Source: Actinomadura fibrosa (GTDB lineage Bacteria > Actinomycetota > Actinomycetes > Streptosporangiales > Streptosporangiaceae). Taken from it: a stretch of DNA of 64,000 nucleotides. The position numbers were made by a program, and so were the translations under genes. Below are positions 8,970 through 56,204 of this stretch, piece after piece. Each line of letters begins with the position of its first letter. Position 1 is the first letter of the stretch. Where the stretch lies: assembly GCF_900659615.1 (NCBI RefSeq), contig NZ_CAACUY010000001.1, positions 124,001-188,000 of the forward strand, given 5' to 3'. The notes below the pieces were generated by a model that was given only the letters and a program-made list of their open reading frames with translations, had not been told where the DNA came from and did no database searches.

Positions 8970-8971
8970 GG

Positions 8972-10865: not shown

Positions 10866-12721
<1,856 letters not shown>

Positions 12722-12838
12722 GTCTCTCGTCCTCCGTCGTGTGCGTTTATCTCGTTCCCGGTCGCGCCCCCCAGGGTGTGCGTCCGGACGGGTCCTCTGT
12801 TCGCAAGGGTGCCCGGCACGGATCTCGTTGTCAAATGA

Positions 12839-12859: not shown

Positions 12860-13006
12860 TTTGCTGATGCTCTTGCTAACAGGACGTCTGAGCCGTCTAT
12901 TCCGGTTCCCGCCCGCCGCGGAAAATCCGTCCCGCCGGACTCCCGGGGGGAAGGCGATCACCCCCTTCGGACGATCACGAGTGATGCCCGCGACGAAGGG
13001 AACTCG

Positions 13007-16000
13007 ATGACGCACAGACCCTGGAGCCGCGCCCTGCTGGGCGCGCTGCTCGCCGGCGGCGCCCTGGCGGTGCCGCCGACCGGTGCCGCCCACGCCGCCC
13101 CGGCGGGCGGATCCGGCGGCCTCCCGCCCGGCCGTTCCTGGACGGTCACCCTGCTGACCGGCGACGTCGTCCGGGTGCGGACGGTCCAGGGCCGCGCGCC
13201 GATGGTCGCGACGACCCCGGCGCCGGGCCGGGACCATCACCTCTTCCGCACGGTCGTCCGCCCGGACGGGCACGTGCTCGTGACGCCGGTGGACGTCGCG
13301 AAGCTCGTCGGGAGGGTCATCGACCCGGAGCTGTTCGACGTGACCGCGCTGATCGGGGAGGGCTACGACGACGCGCGAAGCACGGACCTGCCGCTGATCG
13401 TCCAGCGGGAGGGCGGTGTCCGCGCGAAGGCGGCGCTCGGCGGGTCGCTCCGCGAGGGCAGGGTCCTGCCGAGCATCTCCGCCGTCGCCGCCCGCCAGCC
13501 CAAGAAGGACGCCGGGCGGCTCGGCTCGGCCCTAGCCGGCATGGGCGGACCGTCCCTGAAGGCGACCGGCGGCATCAAGCACGTCTGGCTGGACGGCAGG
13601 GTGAAGGCGTCCACCGGACGGACCGCTCCGGGCCTCGGCGCGGCCGCCGCCGGGGATCTCGACCGCAACCTCGCGCAGATCGGCGCGCCGGCGGCGTGGA
13701 AGGCCGGATTCACCGGACGCGGCGCGAAGGTCGCCGTCCTGGACACGGGCGTGGACACCGGGCATCCCGATCTGAAGGGCCGGATCGCCGGCACCGAGAA
13801 CTTCTCCGACTCCGCCGACACCGCCGACCGCGTCGGGCACGGCACGCACGTCGCCGCGACGATCGCGGGGACGGGCGCGGCGGCGGGCGGCGAGCGCAAG
13901 GGCGTGGCCCCGGACGCCGGCCTGCTGGTCGGCAAGGTGCTCGGGGACGACGGCTCGGGCAGCGAATCGCAGGTCATCGCGGGCATGGAGTGGGCCGCGC
14001 GGCAGGCCAAGGTCGTCAACATGAGCCTCGGCGGCGGGCCGACCGACGGCACCGACCCGATGTCGCAGGCCCTCGACCGGCTCAGCGACGGGTACGGCGC
14101 GCTGTTCGTCGTGGCCGCGGGCAACGACGGCTCCATCGGCTCCGTCGGCGCGCCGGGGACGGCGGACGCCGCGCTCACCGTCGGCGCGGTGGACGGCGCC
14201 GACCGGCTCGCCGGGTTCTCCAGCCGCGGCCCGCGCGCCGGGAGGTACGCGGCCAAGCCGGAGATCGTCGCGCCGGGCGTCGACATCGTGGCGGCCCGCG
14301 CCGAGGGCACCGCGATGGGCACCCCGCAGGACGCGCTCTACACGGCGGCGTCGGGCACCTCGATGGCAACCCCGCACGTCGCGGGCGCGGCGGCGCTGCT
14401 CGCCGCGAGGTACCCGGACCTCGCGCCCGCGCGGCTGAAGGCGGCGCTGACCTCGACGACCGGCCCCGCGTCCGGCGGCGACGCCTGGGAGCGCGGCACG
14501 GGACGGCTCGACGCGGCCACCGCCGTGACCGCGCCCGTGACCCCCGCGGAGGGCGTCATCGACCTCGGAACGGCCGCGTACCCGTCCTACGGCAGGCTGA
14601 CCGCCAAGCTCGCGTGGGACGCGCGCTCGACCGCAACGCACCTGGATCTGAGCGTGCGTGTCACAGACCGGGACGGACGGGAGGCGGCCGGAGTCGCGAC
14701 CCTGTCCGCGTCCCAGGTGGACGTCCCAGTGGGGGGTGGCGCGTCCGCGATCCTCGACATCGACGCCTCGAAGCTGTCTGGGAAGCCGGGGCTTTACACG
14801 GCGGAGGTCACGGCCAAGGGTGGCGGAGCGACCGTCCGGACCTTGGCGACGTTCTACGTTGAGCCGCGCACCCACACCCTCACGCTGGTCGCCAAGCCGC
14901 TGCCCGACACCGACCCCGCCGACTTCTCCGGATACGCGGAGATCGTCAACGTGTCCGACATCGCGCTGTACGCCGAATCCGTGGACGTCACCACGGACGG
15001 GACGTCCAAGTACCGCGTCCCCGAGGGCCGCTACAGCGTGCTGGGCACGCTCGACGACTTCGGAGGCGACGCGATCCGCTCGGTGGTCGCGGGCACGCCC
15101 GAGATTCTCGTCGACCGCGACCTGACGCTGACGATGGACGGCACGTCCGCCAAGCGGGTCAACGGAGGCGTCGAGGGGACGTCCACGACGGCGACCACGG
15201 CGAGCGTCTCCGCCGTCCGCGCGCTCAAGCAGGGCCTGTTCTCGGTCGGCATCTACTCCGACGACCCGGCGAGCGCTCCCGCCTACGCGCTGCCGATGGG
15301 GAAGGCGCAGACCGGGACGTTCCGCGCCTACGCCGCCCACCGGCTGACCGCGCCCGGGACCGTCTACGACATCATCCACTCCCTCGGCGACTCGATCCCC
15401 GCCGACCCGTCCTACGTCGTCGCCGGAGCCGAGAAGGCACGGCTGGCCCGCGTCGACCAGCGCTTTGCCGCCTTCGACGGCGACACCGGCAAGTCCGTCG
15501 GTGAGAAGCGCTACGGAACCTCGCCGGAGGGACTCCTCCTCGCGGGGCTGGACGCGTACAGCGAGGTACCGTCCGGCACCACGCGCACCGACTACCACTC
15601 GACCGGCAAGGGGATGCTCTGGTCGGACGAGGCGTTCCCGAGGGCCGTCGCGAACGGCCAGTGGGTCGACCAGGCCGGGTTCAGCGAGGTACCGGCCGGT
15701 AACCGCACCACGCAGACGTGGGGCCGCCAGCCGCTGCGTCCAGGACCGTACTCCGGCAGCGGAGTCGCCTTGAGCTTCTGCGCCCCGGCCCCGACCGCCC
15801 GCACGCGCGGCTCCCTGCGCGTCCAGCTCGTCGACCTCCAGACCCGGCCGGACGGCTTCGACTGCGGCGTGGACGGCATCACCGGACGGCTCGCGCTGTA
15901 CTCCGGCGGCAAGAAGCTCGGTGAGAAGGCGGCGCCCTACGGGGACTTCACCATCCCGGCCGGTCCGGCGGCGTACCGGCTGACGTACGACAACGACGCG

Positions 16001-16399
16001 TCCGCGGTGCTGCCGGTGTCGGTCCGCACGTCCACCGCGTGGACGTTCCGCTCCGCGGCGCCGGACGGGCACGCGAGCGCCAACGTCCCGCTGCTGACCG
16101 TGGACTACGACCTCGGCCTCGACCTCCGCAACCAGCCGGCGGGCGCGCCCGCGACCTTCACCGTCGCCCGCGTCGCGGGCAGCGGCACGGCGAAGGTCAC
16201 CGGCTTCCGCCTCTGGACGTCGGTGGACGACGGCGCGACGTGGCGAGCCGTCCGGGCGAAGGCGCTCGGCGGGGGCCGGTTCGGCGCTCCGCTTCCGGCG
16301 GCCGTCCAGGGGCAGGCCGTGTCGCTGCGCGTCGCCGCCACCGACGCCGGCGGCAGCGGCGTCGACCAGCGGATCATCCGCGCCTACCGCGTCAGGTGA
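13007..16399 (+). CDS. secreted S8 subtilisin-like serine protease
   Basis: The 1130-aa product has a signal peptide (charged start, hydrophobic 8-24, AHA-AP cleavage near 31), a pro-region, then a subtilase domain with Asp246 ([15 protein letters not shown]), His278 (VGHGTHVAA) and Ser452 ([13 protein letters not shown]). The oxyanion Asn is in VVAAGNDGS. About 600 residues of beta-rich domains follow, with no LPXTG anchor, so it is probably released. Large subtilases of this type are common in Streptosporangiales and degrade extracellular protein. ATG 13007 follows AAGGGAA. It is divergent from dnaK with 285 bp between them. Confidence 0.93.
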
Positions 16400-16432
16400 C
16401 CGTGCCGCCGGGCCGGGCGGACACGTCCGGAC

Positions 16433-16459
16433 GGACAGGTTCGGAAGGACAGGTTCGGA
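16433..16459. repeat. short tandem repeat after the protease gene
   Basis: GGACAGGTTCGGA occurs at 16433-16445 and again at 16447-16459, in a stretch of related CGGAC units. No function is evident. It lies between the protease stop and the sigma-factor promoter region. Confidence 0.6.
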
Positions 16460-16660
16460 CGGACACCGCCCGGACTCGGCGGGACGCCCGGTAGGAAGGT
16501 GCACGGCGGTCCGCGGGCCGCCGGTCGCGCGGCGGCCGGAACGAAGATCGGCTTTTTCGGGCGGGAGGGGAAGGCGGCGCGGGGAGCGGACAACAACGGA
16601 TAACCGCTGTCACGCCAACCATGTGTCGACCCACGACAGCCTCATCCGAAGGAGCCATCG

Positions 16661-17344
16661 ATGGCCGCTCTTTCTGGGGGACGACCCCCGGTCTCCCGTG
16701 CCGCGCCGAGGGAGGTCCTGGCCTCGCCGGGGCCTCGCCCGGCCTCGTCCCCGGCGCCGTTCGGCGCCCCGGGGCGGCGGGACGCGGAGGTCATCGAGCG
16801 GTCGTGGCGGGAGCCCGAGCGGTTCGGGGAGATCTTCGACTCCTACTTCGCGGAGATCCACCGGTACGTGGCGCGCCGCGTCGACGCCCAGGTCGCCGAC
16901 GACCTGGCCGCCGAGACGTTCGCGGTGGCCTTCCGGCGCCGCCGCCACTACGACCTGGCGCGCGGCAACGCGCGGCCGTGGCTGTACGGCATCGCCACGA
17001 ACCTCGTCGGCCGGCACCGCCGCGACGAGCGCCGCAAGCTGCGCGCGCTCCAGCGCGTCGGCGCCGACGACCGGGCGGGCGGCCACGAGGACGCCGTCGC
17101 CGCCCGGGTCGCCGCGGAGGGGATCCGGGGACCGCTGGCCAAGGCGATCGCCGCGCTGCCCGCCGGGCAGCGCGACGTGCTGCTGCTCGTCGTCCTGGCC
17201 GACCTCGGCTACGACGAGGTCGCGGCGGCCCTGAACATCCCGTTCGGGACCGTCTCTTCCCGGCTCAACAGGGCTCGCAGAAAACTGCGCAGGGCGCTGG
17301 GCGGGACCAATCCGCTGCTGGACCAGGAGGGAACCACCCGATGA
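16661..17344 (+). CDS. ECF-type sigma factor (module 1)
   Basis: The 227-aa protein has sigma region 2 (about 58-125, with YFAEIHRYVARRV, ADDLAAETFAVAFRRR and ARPWLYGIATNLVGRHRR) and region 4 (about 165-215, LPAGQRDVLLLVVLADLGYDEVAAALNIPFGTVSSRLNRARRKLR). A Pro/Ala-rich leader of about 40 residues precedes region 2. ATG 16661 has GAAGGAG upstream. Its TGA overlaps the ATG of the CU044_5270 gene (ATGA). The paralog at 21107-21700 has the same arrangement. Sigma factors of this kind are usually held inactive by the downstream membrane partner, an inference here. Confidence 0.92.
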   Translation: MAALSGGRPPVSRAAPREVLASPGPRPASSPAPFGAPGRRDAEVIERSWREPERFGEIFDSYFAEIHRYVARRVDAQVADDLAAETFAVAFRRRRHYDLARGNARPWLYGIATNLVGRHRRDERRKLRALQRVGADDRAGGHEDAVAARVAAEGIRGPLAKAIAALPAGQRDVLLLVVLADLGYDEVAAALNIPFGTVSSRLNRARRKLRRALGGTNPLLDQEGTTR

Positions 17345-18525
17345 ACGAGCTGACGTCCGTCCGCGAGCTGTACGGCGACCCGCCGCCGCCGACGGACCGG
17401 ACCGTGGCCGCCGCCCGCGTCCGCATGACCCAGCCCCCGCCCCGCCGCCGCCCGCAGGTCCGCTTCAGCCGGTGGTCCAGGGTCGGGCTCGGGCTGGTGG
17501 CCGCCGGCGCCGCCGCCGCGGTCGCCGTCGCCGCCGCCGGATCCGGGACGTCCGGCCCCGCCGGGCCCTCGACGTCGGTCGACCTGGACCGGAGGGCCGT
17601 GCTGGAGGCGGCGGCCAAGGCCGAGGCCCTGCCGACGGGACGGTACTGGTACTCCGACGAGATCTCGGGGCAGTCGTACATCGTCCGGTCGAGGACCGGC
17701 GAGTACGCGATCACCGGCGCGCACAGCGAGATGTACCACTGGATCGGCGCCGAGGTGGGGACGGGGGAGGGCTACGCCAGCCGCGACCTGCCCGCGAAAC
17801 CGCTGACGGCGGAGGACGAGGCCGCGTGGCGGCGCGCCGGGTCGCCGTCGTCCTTCCGCGTCTGGTCGAACGACCACTACTACACCTACCGGCGGACGGC
17901 CACGCCCTGGACGAAGGACAAGCCCGACGCCTCGGGCGGCGGCCGGTTCTTCCTGGTCGGGGGGCGGAAGATGACCACCGAGGAGGTCCGCCGCCTGCCG
18001 TCCGACCCGGCCACGCTCGCCCGGATGTTCTTCGGGCCGCCGCCCGAGAAGAAGGGGCTCACCGGCAAGGGCCGGAAGGCCGAGCAGCTCCGGGCCGCCG
18101 CGGTCTCGCCGCCGAGGTGGCCGTTCCGCGTCGTCGCCGCGCTCCTGCGGACGGCGCCGCTCGAACCGAAGGTGCGGGCCGGGCTGATGCGCGCCCTCGC
18201 GGCCCAGCCGGAGGTGCGGGCCCTCGGCAAGGCCACCGACCCGCTCGGCCGGACGGGTGTCGCGCTCGCCGTGGACGACATGTCGCCCACCGGGCGCGAC
18301 GGCGAGTTCGGTGCGCCGAAGGAGGAGCAGGGCACGTTCAGCACCCGCTCGGAGCTGATCTTCGATCAGGCGACCGGGAAGCTGCTCGCCGAGCAGACCG
18401 TGCTGACCGCGCCGGGCGGCCCGTACCGTAACCGCAAGCCGGGCTTCGTCGTCTACTACTCGCTCATCCGGGACCTCGGCTGGACGGACGCCAAGCCCAA
18501 GCCCCCGGTCGAGCTGCCCTTCTAG
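17341..18525 (+). CDS. CU044_5270 family membrane-anchored protein, probable anti-sigma partner (module 1)
   Basis: The 394-aa protein begins MNELTSVRELYGDPPPPTDR, has a cytoplasmic segment of about 50 residues, one transmembrane helix (about 49-66, VGLGLVAAGAAAAVAVAA) and a long extracytoplasmic domain that starts LDRRAVLEAAAKAEALPTGRYWY. This is the CU044_5270 family layout, always found after an ECF sigma gene. The short N-terminus inside the cell could bind the sigma factor and the outer domain could sense the envelope; this is inference from topology. Overlapping start (ATGA) links it to the sigma gene. Outer-domain similarity to the 21703 gene is low apart from the start and end (LGWTDAKP, AGWTDAGP). 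Confidence 0.85.
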   Translation: MNELTSVRELYGDPPPPTDRTVAAARVRMTQPPPRRRPQVRFSRWSRVGLGLVAAGAAAAVAVAAAGSGTSGPAGPSTSVDLDRRAVLEAAAKAEALPTGRYWYSDEISGQSYIVRSRTGEYAITGAHSEMYHWIGAEVGTGEGYASRDLPAKPLTAEDEAAWRRAGSPSSFRVWSNDHYYTYRRTATPWTKDKPDASGGGRFFLVGGRKMTTEEVRRLPSDPATLARMFFGPPPEKKGLTGKGRKAEQLRAAAVSPPRWPFRVVAALLRTAPLEPKVRAGLMRALAAQPEVRALGKATDPLGRTGVALAVDDMSPTGRDGEFGAPKEEQGTFSTRSELIFDQATGKLLAEQTVLTAPGGPYRNRKPGFVVYYSLIRDLGWTDAKPKPPVELPF

Positions 18526-34327: not shown

Positions 34328-34457
34328 GATCTCCTTTCGCGTTCCCACGCCGAGCGCGGAAACCGTTCGTCTCCGGGACGGCGCCCGAGACGCGACTCAC
34401 GCGAAAAGAGATGTCAACCGGACGCCACAGTGATGCGTCGATCGAAACTACCCGTCC

Positions 34458-34490
34458 AGCGAGAAAGTTTCATCTTTCGGTGATCTCGCT
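34458..34490. terminator. possible hairpin at the end of dcd
   Basis: AGCGAGA (34458-34464) pairs with TCTCGCT (34484-34490), partly overlapping the dcd stop. It could end dcd transcription or be part of the betaine operon promoter. No T-run is seen. Confidence 0.3.
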
Positions 34491-35065
34491 CACACCTTCG
34501 TCCGGTGGAAGTTCAGGTACGACCGCGACGGCGTCGGCCCCCGCTGGTCCTGGTACCGCGACCCGTACTTCTCCGACCCGTACGGATACTCCGCCGGCGA
34601 ACTCGTCCTGAACAGGCACATCTGCCCGATCTTCATGCCCGGCCACAGCTTGATCGGCAGCGTCGCCACGTTCGACAGCTCCAGCGTCACGTGCCCGCCG
34701 AACCCCGGATCGATCCACCCCGCCGTCGAGTGCGTCAGCAGTCCCAGCCGCCCGAGCGAGCTCTTCCCCTCCAACCGCGCCGCCAGATCGTCCGGCAGCG
34801 CGAACACCTCGTACGTGGACGCCAGCACGAACTCCCCGGGATGCAGCACGAACGCCTCCTCGGCGTCCACCTCCACCAGCCGCGTCAGATCGCTCTGCTC
34901 CTCCGCGGGGTCGATGTGCGGGTACTTGTGGTTCTCGAACACCCGGAAGTACCGGTCCAGCCGCACGTCCACACTGGACGGCTGGACCATCGCCGGGTCG
35001 TACGGGTCGATCTTGACCCGCCCGGACTCGAGCTCGAACCTGATGTCGCGATCGGAGAGCAGCAC
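34490..35065 (-). CDS. dcd: dCTP deaminase
   Basis: The 191-aa product has all Dcd hallmarks: [27 protein letters not shown], the nucleotide-binding [21 protein letters not shown] and the catalytic Glu in GHVTLELSN. It deaminates dCTP to dUTP (or, in bifunctional forms, directly to dUMP) in pyrimidine synthesis. The start is GTG 35065. It is the last conserved chromosomal gene before the tRNA-Gly integration site. Confidence 0.96.
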
Positions 35066-35165
35066 GTCGCAAAGCTACCGGCCTGCCGCCCCCGCCCGCT
35101 CCCCGCCACACCCCCTCGCACTTTCCGGTACGATGTCCGAGCGGCGGTTCACCCCACCGCCTCAC

Positions 35166-35239
35166 GCGGGTGTAGTTCAATGGTAGAACTTCAGCTTCCC
35201 AAGCTGACAGCGCGGGTTCGATTCCCGTCACCCGCTCCA
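35166..35239 (+). tRNA. tRNA-Gly(CCC)
   Basis: The 74-base sequence folds into a full cloverleaf: acceptor GCGGGTG with CACCCGC, D-arm GTTC/GAAC, anticodon stem TCAGC/GCTGA with loop TTCCCAA (anticodon CCC), T-arm with GTTCGATTC, and an encoded CCA end. It is the intact member of four copies of this 3' half and is the attachment site of the downstream integrated DNA. Confidence 0.97.
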
Positions 35240-35244
35240 TAACG

Positions 35245-35284
35245 AAGGCCCAGGTCAGGAACATGCTTCCCGAGCCTGGGCCTT
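35245..35284 (+). terminator. tRNA-Gly terminator
   Basis: AAGGCCCAGG (35245-35254) pairs with CCTGGGCCTT (35275-35284), followed by a T-run at 35290-35294. Versions of this hairpin follow each of the three tRNA 3' copies, so the duplicated unit includes it. Confidence 0.75.
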
Positions 35285-35310
35285 GATCGTTTTTGGTCGT
35301 CTTCACCGCT

Positions 35311-35330
35311 GGGCCATTAGCGGGCCATTA
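35311..35330. repeat. paired arm-type repeat beside tRNA-Gly
   Basis: GGGCCATTAG followed directly by CGGGCCATTA, two near-identical units. Related pairs occur at 36593, 36791, 37711 and 38833, near the att copies. They probably bind the N-terminal domain of the integrase. Confidence 0.6.
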
Positions 35331-35474
35331 AGCCACCGGCACCAGCGCCCCGCCCGCTCCACCGTCCTCGTCGTCGTCCTGGCCCTGCTCTGCCTGAACC
35401 AGGGCATCGAGGCCATCGGCAATGGCGCGGTCGCCCTTGGCCGACTTGTGCTGGTAGCGCAGCGCGGCCCGCAT
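35328..35474 (-). pseudogene. 3' stub of a tyrosine integrase gene (copy 1)
   Basis: The reverse strand from 35474 reads MRAALRYQHKSAKGDRAIAD, then GLDALVQAEQ, an acidic DDDED stretch and GALVPVA before a TAA. This is the C-terminal end of actinomycete AICE-type tyrosine integrases (MRAALxYQHxTxxRDxxIA), including the catalytic Tyr. Upstream residues (GARLKPTRGGSRGD) no longer match the family, so the gene is cut just before the Tyr box. A closely related stub lies at 38851-38982. It is not functional on its own. Confidence 0.8.
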
Positions 35475-35773
35475 GTCACCTCGTGACCCGCCTCGTGTGG
35501 GCTTCAGTCGAGCGCCATCCGGGGTAGCACGGCGCGAATCTCGCGGCCCTTCTGATGCTTGACACCGCTCCCACAGAGATGATCTTGGATGGATGTGGAC
35601 GCGCGGGACGTCGCGGTGCTGGTCGGGGACCCGTGGGGACTTCTCTGGAAGGTCCTGATCTTGCTACGGACCAGAAGGTCAGCGTGCTACTGGGCCTCGC
35701 CGTCCTCCGGCCGATCTGGGCGCGAGGCGGGCCGAGGTCTGTAGGCTTTAGGTGCGGGAGAGGAGGGCTTGTG

Positions 35774-36106
35774 ATGACCGCGCAACCGCAGGACTACCCA
35801 GCAGACGGTATGCCCCTGCCGGGGAAGGGTCTTCGTGCTATCCGGTCTGCTCTCGTGGTGGCGCAGGACCGCGACGCGTTCGACGCCGGTCTCAAGGCCG
35901 TGCTCGACGAGGTGCGCGTCAGCCTGGATCTGGGTGTCCTGAACGACTTCGTGCACATGTGGTGGCTCGCGGCCTGTGACTCTGCCAAGGATCCCGAAGG
36001 CCGGCGGCGGATGCATGCGATGGCCGAGCGCATCCAGGCAGGAGAGCCGGTTCCCCGGGGGCGGTCTGTGCGCGAGATCCTCGCCGAGCGTGAGGCCCGA
36101 GGGTAG
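35774..36106 (+). CDS. DUF6247 family protein, probable antitoxin
   Basis: The 110-aa product has a short leader (MTAQPQDYPADG), then LPGKGLRAIRSALVVAQDRDAFDAGLKAVLDEVRVSLDL, a helical middle with HMWWLAACDSAKDPEGRRRM and a C-terminal RGRSVREILAER. This resembles DUF6247 proteins, which pair with RelE-like toxins in actinomycetes. ATG 35774 has AGGAGG (35761-35766) ahead of it. The next gene starts at the base right after its TAG. Antitoxin function is inferred from pairing. Confidence 0.7.
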   Translation: MTAQPQDYPADGMPLPGKGLRAIRSALVVAQDRDAFDAGLKAVLDEVRVSLDLGVLNDFVHMWWLAACDSAKDPEGRRRMHAMAERIQAGEPVPRGRSVREILAEREARG

Positions 36107-36352
36107 TTGTATCGGCTCATCCTGACGCCGGAGGTCGAGGAGCAGGTCTCTGCCCTTCCGGATGAGGCTCTCGGTCCCTTCGCCGAGCTGATCACTCTAT
36201 TGGAGGTCTCTCCGTGGAGTGGTCGGCCGTTCGGCAGGTCCAACCCCCGAGGCAACATGCTCACGCTCGCCTTCGGAGACGGCGGCCTTGCCGTCTACTT
36301 CGTCCTGGAGGAGCAGCGGGAGACGTGCCTGATCCGCGTTACGTGGCTCTGA
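36107..36352 (+). CDS. RelE/ParE-like toxin
   Basis: The 81-aa product, begun by TTG 36107 with no gap after the DUF6247 gene, reads MYRLILTPEVEEQVSALPDE, then FAELITLLEVSPWSGRPFGRSNPRGNMLTLAFGDGGLAVYFVLEEQRETCLIRVTWL. The LTPEVEEQVSALP start, the small helix and the beta-rich end with YFVLEEQRETCLIRVTW match the RelE/ParE ribonuclease or gyrase-toxin fold. It lies in the DNA between the tRNA and the first att copy, where it could stabilise the inserted DNA. Confidence 0.75.
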   Translation: MYRLILTPEVEEQVSALPDEALGPFAELITLLEVSPWSGRPFGRSNPRGNMLTLAFGDGGLAVYFVLEEQRETCLIRVTWL

Positions 36353-36698
36353 TTCATCGCCCCGACGCCGCTGGACGTCGGTGATGAGGCAGGTCGGTGG
36401 TTCTGCTGTACAGCACGGAAGTACAGCAACAGCCCCACATAACGGCTTACGCGACCTGCCAGCGGCACACGTCACTACGTGGGTGAGACTGCGATGGGCT
36501 GAGTGTACCGGTGGTCCGCATCGAGGTGGCATCGATTGGCCGCGCTCGCAGAGCGAGAGCGGCTGACGCGCCGCAGGTCAGTGGACCCGCTGCGTGCCAT
36601 TAGCGTGCCATTAAGAGCGGCGATCGGGGGTCGATCACGGTTACTTGCGGAACGTCCGAACGCCAGGTCAGGCGCTGTGACAGGCAAGATCGCGATGG
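36353..36698. other. non-coding end of module 1
   Basis: No convincing gene. It holds a CTGTACAGC/GTACAG inverted element near 36405 and the paired arm repeat at 36593. The base composition is a little more AT-rich than the chromosome on the left. Confidence 0.5.
36593..36613. repeat. paired arm-type repeat left of att copy 1
   Basis: CGTGCCATTA followed by GCGTGCCATTA. It lies 86 bp before att copy 1, on the opposite side from the other arm pairs, as expected when an element carries arms on both sides of its core. Confidence 0.6.
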
Positions 36699-36742
36699 TT
36701 CCCAAGCTGACAGCGCGGGTTCGATTCCCGTCACCCGCTCCA
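36699..36742 (+). repeat. att copy 1: exact 44-bp copy of the tRNA-Gly 3' end
   Basis: Positions 36699-36742 are identical to 35196-35239 (anticodon loop to CCA). The left flank is unrelated to the tRNA. The right flank carries a weak version of the tRNA terminator (36747-36782). This is the far junction of the first inserted element. Confidence 0.93.
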
Positions 36743-36790
36743 CACAGAAGGCCCGGGGCAGAGACATGATCTCCGGGCTTCTACGGTCGC

Positions 36791-36812
36791 CGTGCAATGA
36801 GCGTGCGATTAG
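36791..36812. repeat. paired arm-type repeat right of att copy 1
   Basis: CGTGCAATGA then GCGTGCGATTAG, at about the same distance from the att core as the other right-hand pairs. Confidence 0.55.
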
Positions 36813-36976
36813 CCTCACCGCCACCGGGGCCCGCCCACGCTGGCCTGACCCTCGGTGAGCGCAGACCAGCGGGATCGCACCGGTCAGCGGTCGTGGCGAA
36901 GCCCCAAGTAGGTGCGCCGAAGGTACCCTGGCTAAGGCACCAGCACCCGACGATCTGACCGGAGGCACCAGGAGCC

Positions 36977-37561
36977 ATGCCTGCGATGACCCTCCCCTTG
37001 CCGTCCGGTGACACCTGGACTCGGGCAGACTACGAGGCGCTTCCCGAAGACCTCCCTGTACGTGTGAGCCTCATCCACGGAGAACTCGTCGTCGGCCCAC
37101 GGCCCCGCCCGATCCACCAGCGCATCGCGCGGCGCTTGGCGACCTCTCTCGAAGAGGCGGCCACCGACGCTTGGCAGGTGGACACGGACGTGGACGTGCT
37201 GCTGGACGAGGACGAGACAGAGCCGGTCGAGATCGCTCCCGACATCGTCGTCTACTCGGCCGAGCACGACCCCTACGAACGTCCGATCCATGCCGAGTCG
37301 GTCACCCTCGTCGCCGAGGTGGTGTCACCATCCACCAAGCGCAAGGACCGACGCATGCAACCGGCCCTGTACGCAGCGGCCGGTATCCGGCACTACTGGC
37401 GAGTCGAGACCGACCAGACCGCGCCGGCGTTCGCGATCTATACCTACGAACTCGACGACGCCACAGGCTTGTATATCGCGACCGGCGTCCACCACGACCG
37501 CATCTCCGCGACTCTGCCTTTCTCTCTCGACATCGACCTCAAGGCCGTCCGCGGACGCTGA
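36977..37561 (+). CDS. Uma2 family (DUF820) PD-(D/E)XK nuclease-fold protein
   Basis: The 194-aa product has the Uma2 pattern: WTRADYEALPEDLPVRVSLIHGELVV, a helix with HQRIARRLATSLEEA, the metal site region VEIAPDIVVYS (Asp), then LVAEVVSPSTKRKDRRMQPALYAAAGIRHYWRV (Glu and Lys). These residues form the PD-(D/E)XK active site. The family is abundant in actinomycetes and cyanobacteria with unknown biology. ATG 36977 follows AGGAG. It is the only gene between att copies 1 and 2. Confidence 0.88.
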   Translation: MPAMTLPLPSGDTWTRADYEALPEDLPVRVSLIHGELVVGPRPRPIHQRIARRLATSLEEAATDAWQVDTDVDVLLDEDETEPVEIAPDIVVYSAEHDPYERPIHAESVTLVAEVVSPSTKRKDRRMQPALYAAAGIRHYWRVETDQTAPAFAIYTYELDDATGLYIATGVHHDRISATLPFSLDIDLKAVRGR

Positions 37562-37603
37562 CGTCGCAGAACGAGAGGCAGACCGCCTACTGGTGGCCCA
37601 GGG

Positions 37604-37646
37604 TTCCCAAGCTGACAGCGCGGGTTCGATTCCCGTCACCCGCTCC
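37604..37646 (+). repeat. att copy 2: 43-bp tRNA-Gly 3' copy
   Basis: Identical to 35196-35238, lacking only the final A of CCA, where a G follows. The terminator hairpin (37654-37663 with 37683-37692) is retained. Confidence 0.93.
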
Positions 37647-37653
37647 GAGCATG

Positions 37654-37692
37654 AAGGCCCAGGTCAGCGAGTCACGCTCCAGCCTGGGCCTT
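37654..37692 (+). terminator. duplicated tRNA terminator after att copy 2
   Basis: AAGGCCCAGG and CCTGGGCCTT, the same 10-bp stem as the original tRNA terminator, with a different loop. Confidence 0.65.
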
Positions 37693-37710
37693 TCGCTATC
37701 ACCGGCCGCC

Positions 37711-37730
37711 GTGCCCGTTACGTGCCCGAT
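37711..37730. repeat. paired arm-type repeat right of att copy 2
   Basis: GTGCCCGTTA then CGTGCCCGAT, same placement as the other right-hand pairs. Confidence 0.5.
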
Positions 37731-38156
37731 CCCGAGGCGCCCGGCTTCTTCTTGCCCTTCCCCTTCTTCCCCTTCGCCTTCTTGAGCTCGCGCTTGGCCA
37801 TCTTGCCGAGCGTCAAGGGGCGGCGGCGCTCAGGCCGCTGCGCGGCCCCGCGCCGGGCCGTCCGGAGCGTGCGGCGTGGACGCCGGTCACCGGACGGCCG
37901 CGCCGGACCGCGCATCGTGCCGCCGCTGCCCCGTCCGCCAGTCGCCGGCGGTCACGGGGTCCGCGCCGCCGCCCAGTCGCGGGCCACCACGTGGCCGAGG
38001 TCTTCTTTGCCTCCGGCGGGGGCACGCCGACTCCGGGAAGCAGAGGCCGCGCCCGCTGCGGTCGTCGTGGAGTGAGGGAGGAAGCTCAGGCAGGTGGGTG
38101 GTGCTGCTATAGCGTCAATGTCAACATGGCGCCATGGCGTCTCTACGAACACACCC
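37731..38156. other. region without a convincing gene in module 3
   Basis: A minus-strand frame (37718-37915) with a Lys-rich end (KKAKGKKGKGKKKPGA) stops inside the arm repeat, the same place as the integrase stubs. It could be the tail of a third integrase, but it has no Tyr box and I do not call it. Confidence 0.4.
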
Positions 38157-38576
38157 ATGAGCCGAAGGCCGCCAAGTCGTGTACGGGCAATCCGGTACAC
38201 CAAGCATGCAAAGCCACCGTCACGCGTCCCCGAAGGCGTGCCTGCGAAGGTGCTACGGCAGATTGAGCACGCCTCACGGACGGGCGCTTGTCCATCGGTC
38301 CAGGAGATGGGCACTGCGCTCTCTGCGTTGGCATGGTTCCTTGGCCAGCAAGGCCGAACGTTGACATTGGACCCGGATACAACTTGCCCATGTCATGATC
38401 CCCGAGACGCGTTGGACACTCTTCACATGATCACGCGGGCGCTCCCCAGTCCAGCCAGACGGCAGGTTGAGGCGGTCATGTCTCCGCTCGTTGAGCAGTT
38501 CCGCGAACGGACCTTGCCGGATCCGCTCGCTACAGAAGATCAGCCTTGGTGGTGGCGGCGCATTACCGACCGCTAG
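38157..38576 (+). CDS. hypothetical actinomycete protein, 139 aa
   Basis: The product has a basic N-terminus (MSRRPPSRVRAIRYTKHAK), a helical middle (SVQEMGTALSALAWFLGQQ) with two Cys and a His (TCPCHDPRDALDTLHMI), and a C-terminus ALPSPARRQVEAVMSPL followed by RTLPDPLATEDQPWWWRR. The last segment resembles small uncharacterised actinomycete proteins that end LPDP-x-PWWxRR. ATG 38157 was chosen as the first with a basic family-like start; a TATAGC about 50 bp upstream could be a -10 box. It is the only clear gene between att copies 2 and 3. Confidence 0.6.
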   Translation: MSRRPPSRVRAIRYTKHAKPPSRVPEGVPAKVLRQIEHASRTGACPSVQEMGTALSALAWFLGQQGRTLTLDPDTTCPCHDPRDALDTLHMITRALPSPARRQVEAVMSPLVEQFRERTLPDPLATEDQPWWWRRITDR

Positions 38577-38716
38577 ACCACTGTGCGCGCACGCTGTGCG
38601 GCGGAAGCCGTGCCCGTTGGAGCGGACAACCACGGGCACGTGCGGTCGCTCACGGGGTTGGGCACGCAAGGGCAGCTCAGCGGCCTTGCTGGTGATCGTT
38701 GATCCAGGAAAGTGAC

Positions 38717-38759
38717 TTCCCGAGCTGACAGCACGGGTTCGATTCCCGTCACCCGCTCC
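38717..38759 (+). repeat. att copy 3: diverged tRNA-Gly 3' copy
   Basis: Matches 35196-35238 at 41 of 43 positions (two A/G changes). The downstream terminator and the arm repeat with an integrase stub are both kept. It is probably the oldest junction. Confidence 0.9.
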
Positions 38760-38766
38760 GAGCATG

Positions 38767-38806
38767 AAGGCCCAGGCCAGGGACATGATCCCCAGACCTG
38801 GGCCTT
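38767..38806 (+). terminator. duplicated tRNA terminator after att copy 3
   Basis: AAGGCCCAGG (38767-38776) pairs with CCTGGGCCTT (38797-38806), same stem as the original. Confidence 0.65.
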
Positions 38807-38832
38807 AGTTGTTCCGGTCACACTCACGCTAC

Positions 38833-38853
38833 CGGGCAATTAGCGGGCACTTA
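38833..38853. repeat. paired arm-type repeat right of att copy 3
   Basis: CGGGCAATTA then GCGGGCACTTA. As at 35311, the integrase TAA lies in the last unit, so gene end and arm site are fused in the same way. Confidence 0.6.
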
Positions 38854-38982
38854 AGCCACCGGCACGAGTGCCCCCGCTCCTCTGTCGTCGTCCTCGTCGT
38901 CCGGTGCCTGTCGCTCTGCCTGGACGAGCGCGTCTAGGCCGTCTGCGATCACCCGGTCCGCCCGGGTGGCGCCGCGTTCGTG
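38851..38982 (-). pseudogene. 3' stub of a tyrosine integrase gene (copy 2)
   Basis: The reverse strand reads HERGATRADRVIADGLDALV, then QAERQAPDDEDDDR and GAGALVPVA before TAA. It aligns with the stub at 35328 over its whole length (DR-IADGLDALVQAE, acidic run, GALVPVA). It breaks off just after the expected YQ of the active-site box, losing the catalytic Tyr. The break falls in sequence that on the plus strand encodes the start of the DHFR-family fragment. Confidence 0.78.
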
Positions 38983-39186
38983 CACTCGCTGATCAGGCTC
39001 GGTGTGGTCGACGAGTACCGGCTGTGGGTGCAGCCCGCCGCCACCGGCAAAGGCGCGCCGCTGTTCCCCGAGATGGACCAGCCCCTGAATCTGCGCCTGG
39101 CGTACCTGTCCGGGACGCTCGGACTGGTGTATGGGCCAGTCGGGGAATTAGCCTTCTGCGCTTCGCGTGTGGTCTCTTGTCTATGA
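38965..39186 (+). pseudogene. C-terminal fragment of a dihydrofolate reductase family (RibD C-domain) protein
   Basis: The plus frame reads GGAAFVHSLIRLGVVDEYRL, then WVQPAATGKGAPLFPEMDQPLNLRLAYLSGTL and a stop. GGAAF, LVDEYRLWV and GKGxPLFP are characteristic of DHFR/RibD-family proteins from actinomycetes, but the N-terminal two thirds are missing. The 5' break coincides with the integrase stub, so a deletion or recombination joined them. The end (YGPVGELAFCASRVVSCL) no longer follows the family and may be a frame drift. Confidence 0.7.
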
Positions 39187-39193
39187 TCGGTGA

Positions 39194-39586
39194 ATGCCCC
39201 TTGGTCATATTGGAGTGAACGTCCGGGACCTCGCGCAAGCCAAGGCGTACTACGACGAGTTCATGCCCCTGGTCGGCTTCGAGAGCTTCTTCGCCACTGA
39301 TGAGGAGTTCTCCTACCGTCCTGTGGACGGCAAGCCCGGCACGTACCTGTTCTTCTATCCCGCGCTGGAGGACGCCGACTACTCACGGCATCGTCCTGGC
39401 CTTCAACACCTGGCTTTCATGGTGAAGACCCGTCCGGAGGTGGATCGTCTGCATGAGTGGGCGGTCGAGCGAGGCGCGAACGTGCTGTACGAGCCGCAGG
39501 AGTTCCCTCAGTACCATCCCACCTACTACGCCACGTTCTGGGAAGGGTTTGACGGCGTCACTCTGGAGGTCGTCTGCCACCGGTAA
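39194..39586 (+). CDS. VOC (glyoxalase/bleomycin-resistance) family protein
   Basis: The 130-aa product begins LGHIGVNVRDLAQAKAYYDE with a metal-site His, has GLQHLAFMVKTRPEVDRLHEW in the middle (second His) and ends with EGFDGVTLEVVCHR (Glu). These are the metal ligands of a single VOC module that would dimerise. Function could be lactoylglutathione-like lyase, dioxygenase or resistance. ATG 39194 is 8 bp after the stop of the DHFR fragment. A second VOC gene lies convergently at 39593-39928. Confidence 0.85.
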   Translation: MPLGHIGVNVRDLAQAKAYYDEFMPLVGFESFFATDEEFSYRPVDGKPGTYLFFYPALEDADYSRHRPGLQHLAFMVKTRPEVDRLHEWAVERGANVLYEPQEFPQYHPTYYATFWEGFDGVTLEVVCHR

Positions 39587-39592
39587 GCCGCT

Positions 39593-39928
39593 TCACGCCT
39601 CGGCGAGTGACAGGCTGTTGCCGTCTGGGTCCAGCACGACCACGTGGCGAACGCCGTTGCTGTAGGTCTCCACTGGTTCGTGGGCGATGCCGTGCGCGGC
39701 GAGGCGGGCGAGGATGTCGTCGAGGTCGGTCACACCGAACGTGACCATGGCGCCGCCTATCCGTGTGGTTCGCATCTCCCGGTCGTCGATGACGATCCAC
39801 GCGTTCTCGCCGACCTGCCATAGGTGCTCTTCGCCGATGACCTCGTCGGCGGGACGTCCGAAGAACGCCTCGTACCACTCCGATGCGCTGGTCCGGTCGC
39901 TTACGCACATGACGCTGTACAAGTCCAC
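39593..39928 (-). CDS. VOC family protein, 111 aa
   Basis: The product reads MDLYSVMCVSDRTSASEWYE, then WQVGENAWIVIDD, VTFGVTDLDDILARLAAHGI and a VVLDPDGNSLSLAE end. The DPDGN-Glu end is typical of VOC proteins, but the usual first metal-site His is replaced (YSVMCVSD), so it may be a binding protein without metal. GTG 39928 has a GAGGAGC site. It is 7 bp from the end of the convergent VOC gene. Confidence 0.8.
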   Translation of the reverse strand: MDLYSVMCVSDRTSASEWYEAFFGRPADEVIGEEHLWQVGENAWIVIDDREMRTTRIGGAMVTFGVTDLDDILARLAAHGIAHEPVETYSNGVRHVVVLDPDGNSLSLAEA

Positions 39929-39946: not shown

Positions 39947-40510
39947 TTAGAGGACGGCTTGGAGTTTGTGCGTGAAGCGGTGCATGTTCGGGTCCAGTGA
40001 AGTGATCGGGGTGGTGAGGATTTCGGAGGGGCTCATCCATTCGATGCCTGCGAACTCGCGGTCGTCGAATGTGGTCACGCTCGTCGAGGGGTGCGCCAGG
40101 TACCAGAGCGAGACGTCGGTGTGCCGGCCTGCTCCACGTGTTTGCGTCCAGGTGACGAAGAAGGGGCACTCGGCGGAGTTCGGAACGACCTCCACGCCTA
40201 GTTCCTCGTGGGTCTCGCGCGTCACTGTGCGCCAGGGTTCTTCGCTCGGCTCGACGTGTCCGCCCGGTGGGAGACGCAGGCCGGCGAGCCGGTGATCGAC
40301 CATCAGGATGCGCCCGTGCTCGATCAGGATGGCGTAGCTCACCAGGTGGATCGGAGGGACGTCGGGTTTGCGCGTGCGATACAAGGGAGCCCCGCTGGTG
40401 ATCCACTCCGTGGCCTGCCGACGATGCTGCTCCTCTGTCGCGTCCCACGGTTCCAGGTCGTTCAGGAGGTGGAGGAGGTGACTTCGCTCGCGCGCGTCCT
40501 GGTCTGGCAT
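39947..40510 (-). CDS. NUDIX hydrolase
   Basis: The 187-aa product has a complete Nudix box GGHVEPSEEPWRTVTRETHEELGVEV (about 97-122, GX5EX7REUXEEXGU), preceded by VSYAILIEHGRILMVDHRLAG. It should hydrolyse a nucleoside diphosphate-linked substrate with Mg2+. The start ATG 40510 is the first in frame. It is 18 bp upstream of the VOC gene on the same strand, so they may share a transcript. Confidence 0.88.
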   Translation of the reverse strand: MPDQDARERSHLLHLLNDLEPWDATEEQHRRQATEWITSGAPLYRTRKPDVPPIHLVSYAILIEHGRILMVDHRLAGLRLPPGGHVEPSEEPWRTVTRETHEELGVEVVPNSAECPFFVTWTQTRGAGRHTDVSLWYLAHPSTSVTTFDDREFAGIEWMSPSEILTTPITSLDPNMHRFTHKLQAVL

Positions 40511-40610
40511 CTCCGCATCATGCCGGATCCCGGGCGGCGCACTCCATCGGCTGATCGTCCGAGTGATCCCCGGGGCGGTGGGGCGCGTCCAATCAGGTGG
40601 GGGTTTCGAC

Positions 40611-40760
40611 ATGCTGGGACGAGCGTGGAGGCGCCGCCGACCGCGGAAGAGCGCCCCGGTGGCGGTGGGGGCGAGTACGCGGATTCCGCTTCTCCCGCCC
40701 TCCGCGGTCGGTTTGAGTCCGCCCATGGCCCGTGCCCAGCACCGGCGGCGGCGATCCTGA
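40611..40760 (+). CDS. basic 49-aa ORF ahead of a membrane protein
   Basis: ATG 40611 follows a GGTGGGGG site and encodes MLGRAWRRRRPRKSAPVAVG through a Pro-rich part to AQHRRRRS. The TGA overlaps the next ATG by one base (TGATG). It could be a leader, the true cytosolic start of the membrane protein after a frame change, or chance. The composition gives no family. Confidence 0.35.
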   Translation: MLGRAWRRRRPRKSAPVAVGASTRIPLLPPSAVGLSPPMARAQHRRRRS

Positions 40761-41494
40761 TGGTCGGTCTGTTCCTGCTGAGCTGGGTGCTGTATCTGCG
40801 TCTGAACCTTGACGCCATGGTCGACACGGTACGGCTGGCCACCGCGCCGGAGTACACCGCGACCGTGGAGCCGCCTCGCCCGGGCGGCGACCTGCCGGTC
40901 CTCCACTGGACCGGTGCAGAGGGGGTCGAGCGTTATGGGCGCCCGGACGCGTCAGACGGTTACCGGCCCGGCGAGAAGGTACGCGTGGTGGAGTACTCAG
41001 CGGCCACCTGCTGGACGTGGGAGAGCGATGAGGACCAGCTGGACGATGTGTCCGGGATGATCCTGTTCCTGTTCGTCCTGCCCGCCGCCGCGATCACCCG
41101 GTACCTCGTTCACCGGCGTCGGCACTGGCTTGCCGTCCTCCGGGCGGCGCGGGCGGGCCTAACCGCGGGCCAGGTCGTCGCGCTCTACGAGTTCGGTCGC
41201 CGCAAGGTCGTGACGGTCGATCTAGGGACTCGTCGGGTGTACGTACCGCTCTTGAACGGCCAGTTCGTCAACGCCCTGACATCGTTGGACGGGCTCCAGG
41301 TCCAGCGACTTCCGGACAAGCGCTTCATCGCGTTCCGCGTCGCCGGCACGGATCGCGTGGTGTGGCCCAGCGGGCGCTATCGGAGGCGCATGGTGCCCGT
41401 GGCCGACGTCGTGGCCCGCCTTGCGTGGGTCGGCGGTCCGCCGCTGCTCACCCTCGCCGTGCATCTGTTCACGGCGCCGCTCTCGCCGTGCTGA
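40760..41494 (+). CDS. two-span membrane protein, hypothetical (DUF3592-like layout)
   Basis: From ATG 40760 the 244-aa product has a first membrane helix at once (MVGLFLLSWVLYL), an outer domain of about 75 residues (ATVEPPRPGGD ... YRPGEKVRVVEYS), a second helix (MILFLFVLPAAAITRYLV) and a cytosolic domain (LAVLRAARAGLTAGQVVALYE ...) with a further weak hydrophobic end. The helix-outer loop-helix pattern with P-G-E-x-V-x-V resembles DUF3592. The frame is open back to GTG 40625, which would add 45 residues. Which start is used is uncertain. Confidence 0.65.
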   Translation: MVGLFLLSWVLYLRLNLDAMVDTVRLATAPEYTATVEPPRPGGDLPVLHWTGAEGVERYGRPDASDGYRPGEKVRVVEYSAATCWTWESDEDQLDDVSGMILFLFVLPAAAITRYLVHRRRHWLAVLRAARAGLTAGQVVALYEFGRRKVVTVDLGTRRVYVPLLNGQFVNALTSLDGLQVQRLPDKRFIAFRVAGTDRVVWPSGRYRRRMVPVADVVARLAWVGGPPLLTLAVHLFTAPLSPC

Positions 41495-54359: not shown

Positions 54360-54959
54360 GTGGGTAGCCCCAAGGTCAGCTTTCGCATGCTCCTGATCGT
54401 CTCCGGCGTCGCCATGGCCGTCCTCGCGGCCGGCGCGTTCGCCCTCCTCAGCGGCGGCGGTTCCGCCGAGTCGGCGCAGGCCGCGCAGACCGCCCCCCAG
54501 CTCACCGCCCCCCAGGCCACGGCACCGGCGGCCGACCCGCCCCGGGCCGCGCCCACCCGGGCCAGCAGGGGAAAGACCCGCTCCCCCGGACCCGCGCCGA
54601 AGAAGAGCGCGAAGCCCGCGAAGACGGCCAAGCCCAAGCCGAAGAAGAAGGCACCCGCCTACAAGGTGCTGAAGTCGGGCTCCTGCCAGGCCTCCTACTA
54701 CTGGGAGGGGCAGATGACCGCCAGCGGCGAGCCGTTCGACCCGAGCGAGCTGACGGCCGCGCACAAGACGCTGCCGATGGGGTCGAAGGTCCGCGTGACC
54801 AACAAGAACAACGGCCGCTCGGTGATCGTCCGCATCAACGACCGCGGCCCGTACGCGGGCGGCCGCTGCCTGGACCTGTCCAAGGCCGCGATGGCCGAGG
54901 TCGGTGGCACCGGCGCGGGCGTGATCCCCGTCCGCTACGAGGTGCTCGCCCGCCGCTGA
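54360..54959 (+). CDS. RlpA-like double-psi beta-barrel protein
   Basis: The 199-aa product has one N-terminal hydrophobic helix (11-30, LLIVSGVAMAVLAAGAFALL), a Pro/Lys-rich linker with AKPAKTAKPKPKKKAPAYK, then a DPBB domain (about 104-198) with GSCQASYYWEGQMTASGEPF, TAAHKTLPMGSKVRVTN and RINDRGPYAGGRCLDLSKAA. The His of AAHKTLP and Asp of INDRGP are the catalytic positions of RlpA lytic transglycosylases. It is probably anchored outside the membrane and acts on peptidoglycan. The start is GTG 54360. Confidence 0.88.
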   Translation: MGSPKVSFRMLLIVSGVAMAVLAAGAFALLSGGGSAESAQAAQTAPQLTAPQATAPAADPPRAAPTRASRGKTRSPGPAPKKSAKPAKTAKPKPKKKAPAYKVLKSGSCQASYYWEGQMTASGEPFDPSELTAAHKTLPMGSKVRVTNKNNGRSVIVRINDRGPYAGGRCLDLSKAAMAEVGGTGAGVIPVRYEVLARR

Positions 54960-54965
54960 CCGCGC

Positions 54966-56204
54966 TCAGCGGTCGGAGCCCGCACCGCTCGCCGCCGCGG
55001 CCTTCACCCGCTCGGCGAGCGAGACCCGCACGGCCGGGGCCTCCGCGACGGGAAGGTGCCGGACCTCGGCGAGCCGCTCCCGGAACCACTCGGTGAGGAC
55101 GCCGTCCGCCCGCACCGCCTCGGTGATCGGCGGGCGCGGCTCGGTCCCGGGCTCCGGGACCAGCGCGTGCCCCATCCGGAGCGTGACGGACTCCACCGCG
55201 CACCCGGTTCCGGACGCCTCCCCGGACGCCTCCCCGGACGCGTTCGGGGAGGCGTCCGCCGGTGGCCCGTCCGCCGGGGCGGCGGCCGTCAAGGAGGCGG
55301 CGGAGCGGCGCAGCGCGTCGCAGAGGGCGGTGATCTCGCTGGGCGGGACGACCCGGTCCTTGGCGCCCGCGACGAACAGCAGCGCCACGTCGCGGGCCGC
55401 GATGTCGCCGGCGAGGGAGCCGAGGTCGAGCCGGTCGGCGAGCGCGCGGGCCGGCTCGGTCCACGTCCGGTCGCGTCCGGCGCGCTTCTCCACCGCCCGC
55501 GCGGCCCGCGACGGCGCGACGACCGGCGCCACGAGCGCGGCGGTGCTCACCGGAACGGTCCCGCGCGCGACCGCCAGCAGCGCGGCGGCGGCGCCCGCGC
55601 TGAACCCGGCGAGCCCGATCGGGCCGTCCGGGATCGCGAGGTCGCGGCGCAGCTCCGCGACCGTGGCGGGCAGGCTCTCGACGGCGCGGATCACAGCGGC
55701 GCCGTAGGCCTCGACGGCCTCGCTCTCCAGGATCGCGCCGGAGCCGAGCCCGCCCGGCGACCGGCCCGGCAGGTCCAGGAAGACGCGCCACGCCGGGACG
55801 CCGGTCATCGGGATCGCGGCGGCCAGCGCGCCCGCCGTGCGCGGCGGGTCGAAGCCCGGCCAGGCGATGATCAGCCGGGTCGCGCCGGTGGCGACGGCGT
55901 CCACCGCCGTCGGCGGCAGCGCGACGTAGCCGGCGCCCGCGGCGGTGCCGTACACGGGCAGCGCATGGACGACCGGCACCTGAGCGGCCGGCATCTGCGC
56001 GGCCGGCATCTGCGCGGTCGGCGCTTGCGCGACTGGTGCCTGCCCGGGCGGCACCTGTGCGACCGGTGCCTGTGCGACCGGTGCCTGTGCGGGCGGTGGC
56101 TGCATGGTCGGTGGGTCTTCTTGGGTTCGGTCGGCCGGTGCGTGGGCGGCCGTCGCCTGGGCGGACGGCGCGGAGCGCGGATCGTGCGGGTGGTCGCCGC
56201 TCAT
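54966..56204 (-). CDS. alpha/beta hydrolase with a low-complexity N-terminal repeat
   Basis: The 412-aa product has a Pro/Ala/Gln-rich start (30-75, repeats of QAPVAQAP and QMPAAQMP), then an alpha/beta hydrolase core with IGLAGFSAGAAAALLAVARG (nucleophile Ser in GFSAG) and FVAGAKDRVVPPSE (Asp), with a likely His in LRMGHALVPEP. A DASPNASGEASGEASG insertion sits near 310. No signal peptide. It is convergent with the RlpA-like gene, 6 bp apart. The repeat may be a flexible tether. Substrate unknown. Confidence 0.8.
   Translation of the reverse strand: MSGDHPHDPRSAPSAQATAAHAPADRTQEDPPTMQPPPAQAPVAQAPVAQVPPGQAPVAQAPTAQMPAAQMPAAQVPVVHALPVYGTAAGAGYVALPPTAVDAVATGATRLIIAWPGFDPPRTAGALAAAIPMTGVPAWRVFLDLPGRSPGGLGSGAILESEAVEAYGAAVIRAVESLPATVAELRRDLAIPDGPIGLAGFSAGAAAALLAVARGTVPVSTAALVAPVVAPSRAARAVEKRAGRDRTWTEPARALADRLDLGSLAGDIAARDVALLFVAGAKDRVVPPSEITALCDALRRSAASLTAAAPADGPPADASPNASGEASGEASGTGCAVESVTLRMGHALVPEPGTEPRPPITEAVRADGVLTEWFRERLAEVRHLPVAEAPAVRVSLAERVKAAAASGAGSDR
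55976..56102. repeat. in-gene repeat encoding AQAPVAQ/QMPAA units
   Basis: About eight degenerate 15-base units of the type GGCACCTGTGCGACC run through the 5' part of the hydrolase gene. Copy number may vary between strains. Confidence 0.6.

Follow-up and report, generated by a model that had tools for sequence, protein, structure and literature searches.

How does a tRNA gene come to be followed by a row of copies of its own 3' end, and does the DNA between these copies still move? The question is raised by a 64,000-nucleotide stretch of DNA from the soil actinomycete Actinomadura fibrosa (contig NZ_CAACUY010000001.1, positions 124,001 to 188,000; hereafter the window), in which a tRNA-Gly(CCC) gene and three partial copies of it bound three short modules. 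We consider it likely that this is a tandem-accretion array of decayed actinomycete integrative and conjugative elements (AICEs), and that a passenger (cis-mobilisation) model describes the arrays of this family.

Four copies of the tRNA-Gly(CCC) 3' end

A repeat search located the 43 nucleotides (nt) of the tRNA 3' end, here called the core, at starts 35196, 36699, 37604 and 38717, with spacings of 1503, 905 and 1113 bp. Together with ARAGORN it confirmed the three additional copies listed in the initial annotation of this DNA. The cores and the hairpins that follow them are:

35166-35239, + strand: tRNA-Gly(CCC), the sole tRNA found by ARAGORN in the window; Rfam tRNA model, 72.4 bits
35196-35238, + strand: first core, the 3' 43 nt of the tRNA, presumed attachment site attB
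36699-36741, + strand: core copy 2, 0 mismatches in 43 nt against the tRNA 3' end
37604-37646, + strand: core copy 3, 0 mismatches in 43 nt
38717-38759, + strand: core copy 4, 2 mismatches in 43 nt
35245-35284, + strand: terminator-like hairpin after the tRNA, z -4.7
36746-36782, + strand: weak hairpin after core copy 2, z -1.7
37653-37693, + strand: hairpin after core copy 3, z -4.4
38767-38806, + strand: hairpin after core copy 4, z -5.0

Across the whole genome of the species (10.9 Mb in 568 contigs, a draft 97.5% complete), a 29-nt core with up to three mismatches was found at the four array sites and at one other (C22, 3 mismatches). The reversed core, used as a control, gave 0 matches; a chance origin of the copies is therefore excluded. 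An Rfam search of 34400-39600 returned only the tRNA itself and one match far below the cut-off, ruling out a known RNA family within the core copies. Most of the downstream terminator had also been described as copied. A hairpin can indeed form after each core, but the four hairpin sequences differ and are therefore not plain copies of one terminator.

Arm repeats and integrase remnants beside the cores

Each core in the window is followed by paired repeats of 11-bp period, of family A after cores 1, 2 and 4 and of family B after core 3. Judged by sequence, such pairs are putative integrase arm sites. At the threshold used, the shuffle chance of an arm call is 0.2-0.4% per side. No strand is assigned to the arms; fractions are matching positions and decimals are scores.

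35311-35331: left arm repeat pair, family A, after core 1 (20/21; 0.97)
36792-36812: left arm repeat pair, family A, after core 2 (19/21; 0.71)
37711-37731: left arm repeat pair, family B, after core 3 (21/21; 0.96)
38834-38854: left arm repeat pair, family A, after core 4 (17/21; 0.86)
36594-36614: right arm repeat pair, family A, before core 2 (21/21, but the consensus was taken from this very site; 0.77 over 57 nt of another consensus)
38609-38716: eroded right arm, family B, before core 4 (0.71; not called by a stricter test; 79% to G019 15100-15273)
35331-35480, - strand: family A remnant of an AICE integrase gene, from its 3' end (E 1.8e-14; 70% to residues 400-449)
38854-39090, - strand: another family A remnant of an integrase 3' end (E 9.4e-6; 42% to residues 372-449)

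All three modules thus have a core at both ends. Both arms are present in module 1 only; no right arm was found before core 3, so that of module 2 is lost, and that of module 3 is eroded. The window holds no full integrase, as had been noted, but integrase 3'-end remnants lie at three places. The third, of family B, adjoins core copy 3 and was read by eye; window positions 37604-37813 are 80% identical in DNA to genome G019.

These features bear on a reading without site-specific recombination, in which the tRNA 3' end was multiplied by segmental duplication or gene conversion. It would explain why the cores are near-identical while their surroundings differ. The integrase-family repeats on either side, the integrase remnants and the intact AICEs bounded by the same core (below) all speak against it; it is refuted for modules with an integrase and both arms, and we regard it as highly improbable overall.

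Intact AICEs occupy the same tRNA gene

The core (up to three mismatches) occurs in 65/65 Actinomadura genomes examined, and an integrase-like open reading frame (ORF) ending in the left arm adjoins 24 cores in the genus, many of these ORFs being full length. Two intact elements at tRNA-Gly(CCC) were examined in detail. The 13.8-kb element of G010 encodes an integrase (Int), RepSA (E 2e-163), an FtsK-family protein (1.3e-20) and a GntR regulator; the 11.4-kb element of G019, of family B, encodes Int, RepSA and FtsK. Both are AICEs of the pSAM2 kind, with integrase, RepSA-type replication and FtsK-like TraB in one element bounded by attachment (att) sites. The window does not contain this set.

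The arms and integrase stubs of the window match the intact AICEs at the same tRNA, in keeping with the derivation by deletion that characterises cis-mobilisable elements (CIMEs). Such elements also lack integrase and transfer genes; the window has integrase 3'-end stubs only, and a Pfam scan found no transfer gene among the module ORFs scanned. We searched its whole genome, a draft in which an integrase could have been missed, with one integrase per arm family. The family A query returned the two array stubs and otherwise four matches at 29-32% identity, the family B query returned matches at 27-32% only, and RepSA gave one match, below the Pfam cut-off. With only integrase 3' ends in the window, no integrase match above 32% elsewhere and RepSA below cut-off, the array is therefore a stack of decayed AICEs: tandemly accreted remnants of two integrase families, close to CIMEs.

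A cognate integrase acting in trans was not found in this genome with one query per arm family. The proposal that integrases elsewhere might move the modules in trans was accordingly not borne out here, where there are only stubs and 27-32% matches and right arms are lost or eroded. The array looks stranded, as neither a cognate integrase nor RepSA was found elsewhere in the genome and, of its three right ends, one is lost and another eroded. By itself, the window would be an ordinary, decayed member of the known tandem-accretion kind.

One Actinomadura has, at this tRNA, a 62-kb stretch flanked by arms of a third family, C (TGTCAATCAGATGTCAATGAG; L051 / L052; G015 C1:267794 and 330158).

Genes of the window modules

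The modules carry the following genes:

35774-36106, + strand: module 1, DUF6247 protein, antitoxin-like by position only (Pfam PF19760, E 1.8e-19)
36107-36352, + strand: module 1, ORF of 81 amino acids (aa), RelE-like by eye only (no Pfam or NCBIfam match)
36977-37561, + strand: module 2, Uma2 protein (Pfam PF05685, E 7.8e-23)
38091-38576, + strand: module 3, ORF of 161 aa (no family match)

No NCBIfam score came near any cut-off for the four window cargo proteins. Pfam upheld the earlier call of a Uma2 gene. The toxin-antitoxin pair stands as a DUF6247 gene directly followed by the 81-aa ORF, but this ORF resembles a toxin only, because no Pfam or NCBIfam model matches it; homologues occur in 5 other of the 65 Actinomadura genomes. 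The pair is also found in the close relative G075 (L310; G075 C132, 3615-4420, on a 15.6-kb contig), where the small protein is 98% identical in aa and the DNA 90.7% identical. That contig is without any core copy; the pair therefore also lives outside the array.

In the proposed history, AICE-type elements of at least two tyrosine-integrase families would have integrated successively at the tRNA 3' end, each leaving one more copy of the core. Module 1 would be a family A element cut to both arms, an integrase stub and the DUF6247/81-aa pair; module 2 a family A element reduced to Uma2, its right arm lost; and module 3 a family B element with an eroded right arm.

Modules are present, absent or repositioned among relatives

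We compared the locus across relatives, the check put forward in the initial annotation. Modules are present, absent and at different array positions, with changes at the repeats. This agrees with the proposal made there of serial integrations at a single tRNA, reduced to modules between att sites; module order is not fixed in all relatives, nor are the repeats chance homology. Left of the tRNA, genomes G071, G061, G062 and G005 are collinear at 94.5-97.5%. To the right, little aligns until synteny resumes 15, 22 and 18 kb on in G061, G062 and G005, respectively. Apart from a single 334-bp match to G005, window positions 39000-64000 align with neither G005 nor G061 on the right flank, indicating that synteny is broken in the window genome.

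The closest pair, G071 with the Uma2 module and G061 without it, is 97.5% identical upstream. As the sequence following the tRNA in G061 matches that after the second core of G071 at just 80-91% over short stretches, the pair shows no precise empty site and offers no clean proof of excision.

Within the stretches fetched, the Uma2 module lies at tRNA-Gly(CCC) in 5/65 Actinomadura genomes. DNA matches to it occur in 31/65, most at other places and some fragmentary. The gene is under purifying selection (ratio of nonsynonymous to synonymous substitution, dN/dS, 0.07-0.19). The gene tree places the window copy beside the G006 and G082 genes; the remaining four tRNA-Gly(CCC) copies form a clade of their own. 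This speaks against a single mobile lineage and makes two acquisitions likely. The copies nearest to that of the window lie inside (G006) or beside (G082) elements at tRNA-Gly(TCC), so that the same cargo is found at a second tRNA. These elements (L149 in G006, 1647-17747; L150 in G082, 9228-13305) have a copy of the tRNA 3' end at the far end. Direct repeats around Uma2 itself were absent in G006 and consisted of two unrelated pairs in G082.

Arrays of compact modules across the order

An exact-core scan of the GTDB collection found at least 119 stretches, at least 33 of them with two or more copies. We further surveyed 345 genomes of the order, with the other genera placed in one family with Actinomadura. 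The core (up to two mismatches) occurs in 249 of these; it is present twice or more in 172, three times or more in 122 and five times or more in 50. The maximum is 14, found in Acrocarpospora pleiomorpha over 64 kb, with 12 cores perfect over 36 nt.

Our set comprised 114 modules: 29 Actinomadura genomes contributed 46, and 16 arrays from other genera the remaining 68. Compact modules are common in genera related to Actinomadura and mostly hold one or two genes (five arrays, ORFs listed by a crude composition rule). Pfam matched 19 of 20 module proteins scanned (one an integrase, two from Actinomadura modules); the families include Gp49-like, MazE-like, PIN, SMI1/KNR4, DUF6461, DUF4240, DUF433, SnoaL, glyoxalase, NAD-binding and methyltransferase. 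In a search with three integrase queries, integrases were absent, partial or full in 49, 4 and 0 modules below 2 kb (n=53), in 20, 8 and 2 modules of 2-5 kb (n=30), and in 6, 11 and 14 modules above 5 kb (n=31). The full integrases adjoin the tRNA in 15/16 cases.

Compact modules of the other genera have one-sided ends

Both arms could be called in 40/114 modules, and left and right family agree in 30/40 (shuffle mean 21.6, p 6e-4). For the two arms flanking one core, which belong to neighbouring modules, the families agree in 4/18. Among modules below 2 kb from the other genera, a left arm was called in 7/40 and a right arm in 34/40, with 27 having the right arm only and 0 the left only (p 1.5e-8). 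A family-free test for the 11-bp period agreed, with 6 left and 31 right arms; 26 modules had just the right one and 1 just the left (p 4e-7). Right arms outnumber left arms in 15/15 genomes of other genera, although modules from the same array do not count as independent and there are related cassettes among them. Longer modules had no significant arm asymmetry. In A. pleiomorpha, similarity is 99.5% among 11 cores, 82.7% in the 130 nt upstream of them, 60.2% in the 45 nt downstream and 37.9% in the stretch 100-230 nt after the cores.

One-sided ends could point to an integron-like process, in which AICE integrases acting in trans would excise and insert individual cassettes, each bearing a single right arm and core. 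The gene content of compact modules (one or two genes each in the five listed arrays), the conserved end on one side, the up to 14 near-perfect cores and the cassettes common to several genera fit this idea. However, shared cassettes could equally travel as passengers, and gene orientation within cassettes is mixed. Moreover, lambda-type integrases normally require arms on both sides of attP. We judge this process unlikely.

The passenger model would account for the same ends differently. An intact AICE next to the tRNA would supply integrase and left arm, and at excision its left site could pair with the AICE's own right arm and core, or with any right arm and core further downstream. Integrase-less cassettes of one or two genes would thereby travel as AICE passengers. 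A cassette that has lost its left arm could not excise alone, but having kept its right arm would still be mobilisable with the AICE. The model would jointly explain the tRNA-proximal integrases, the one-sided ends and the shared cassettes. It predicts multi-cassette circles headed by an AICE.

Cassettes are shared between genera

Cassettes recur in other genera and at other array positions. A DUF6461 cassette of Acrocarpospora and Microbispora is 88.6% identical over 876 nt, versus 79.6% on the chromosomal side, and is core-terminated in both. An SMI1 cassette is 87.5% identical over 878 nt between Herbidospora and Nonomuraea, again core-terminated in both (in Nonomuraea as the right end of a 10.5-kb module), and 87.8% over 901 nt between Herbidospora and Microbispora, where homology stops inside a longer Microbispora module. 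Synonymous divergence (dS) is 0.23 for the DUF6461 cassette versus 1.08 for dcd, and 0.21-0.27 for the SMI1 cassette versus 0.73-1.55; the reference is a single gene near saturation, but the gap is still several-fold. For the Gp49-like toxin, dS is 0.55 versus 1.25, over 60 codons only. Thus, some integrase-less cassettes have probably spread horizontally between genera.

One cassette is found twice within one array (A. pleiomorpha G088, 39969-41140 and 54547-55721; L314-L317), the copies being 93% identical over 1176 nt. In N. guangzhouensis (G109 14045-18444, L325), a 4.4-kb module carries, one at each end, two cassettes found as individual modules in N. jiangxiensis and N. terrae; intervening cores can therefore be lost.

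Weighing the passenger model

Several observations weigh against the passenger model or limit its basis. The 16 arrays of other genera came from 15 genomes chosen for high copy number, integrases were sought with three queries only, so that other families would be missed, and the arm consensus strings were picked after looking at the sequences, one being from the window itself. The window does not have the one-sided pattern (left arms at 4/4 cores, right arms at 1/3 by the stricter test), and Actinomadura modules have no significant arm asymmetry, with compact ones at 8/13 on each side. In 10/40 modules the arms are unlike, for instance in G074 (left B with right A, and left A with right B); merging of neighbours by core loss is our guess for these. 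The Uma2 genes of G005, G071 and G063 are collinear with the chromosome, that is, inherited. A PIN-type cassette of Microbispora and Planomonospora, at 81%, is no closer than the chromosome (83.8%), and a cassette of Herbidospora and Nonomuraea, at 77%, is less alike than the chromosome (80.5%).

The collinear Uma2 modules and the PIN-type cassette would suit a plain graveyard, in which AICEs decayed independently, compact modules never move again and shared cassettes are vertical relics. So would the window, where right arms are lost or eroded and no further integrase of either family was found in the genome. Such a graveyard fits poorly with the DUF6461 and SMI1 cassettes, which lack integrases, are common to several genera and have dS several-fold below that of dcd. 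Nor does it fit the duplicate cassette in one array, or cores far better preserved than arms. We consider it doubtful as a general account and retain accretion with passenger transport. We infer that the modules may be mobile, that is, capable of excision and transfer.

A bolder version can be offered tentatively. In Nonomuraea, Microbispora, Herbidospora, Acrocarpospora and their surroundings, AICE integrases might run an integron-like cassette system with the tRNA-Gly(CCC) 3' end as entry site. Cassettes of one or two genes with a single asymmetric site (right arm and core) would be captured, shuffled and exported between genera by resident AICEs, and the window would be a stranded, eroding end of this system.

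Relation to known systems

CIMEs and tandem accretion are already established (PMC5704250, PMC7563491, PMC3146451). Streptococcus CIMEs are decayed elements that keep att sites without integrase or transfer genes, in tandem with integrative and conjugative or integrative and mobilisable elements (ICEs/IMEs). Classical CIMEs measure 1.2-13 kb, the most decayed lying farthest from the target gene (PMC7563491, PMC5704250). Our arrays resemble them as decayed, core-bounded elements in tandem at the 3' end of one gene, but differ in their AICE parents, in up to 14 cores as opposed to two to three elements, in the many one- or two-gene units, and in that other genera usually keep the right arm only. 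AICEs of Frankia and Streptomyces likewise integrate in tandem at a tRNA gene, remnants have been noted, and a Frankia pair was shown to excise singly and together; these cases are pairs of large elements, and arrays of small modules are not described in the portions available (PMC3218068). In Dehalococcoides, many tandem islands are found at one RNA gene, ssrA, as here; 15 have no integration module, and cis-mobilisation was suggested. These islands differ in using a serine recombinase and a 20-bp repeat within 100 kb of ssrA, and one-gene cassettes are not described in the available text (PMC3146451).

A literature search by title and start of abstract, with most subscription papers outside it, found no arrays of such scale with small units and one-sided ends. 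To judge by this search, the array scale, the small module size and the one-sided ends would be new; tandem accretion itself is known. If the passenger model is true, AICEs, besides being self-mobile and plasmid-like, would act as the leading unit of a convoy, picking up individual host genes (toxin-antitoxin, PIN, SMI1, Uma2, enzymes) and carrying them from one genus to another. The retention of one arm and loss of the other in compact modules would then make sense, and the question of CIME persistence would become directly testable in culturable strains. The arrays would also be an actinomycete counterpart to those of integrons. Chromosomal integrons have arrays of one-gene cassettes, toxin-antitoxin cassettes among them, with a conserved recombination end, attC, and the integrase IntI. 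Unlike these, the arrays described here have a tRNA 3' end with 11-bp repeats in place of attC, and AICE integrases would take the place of IntI.

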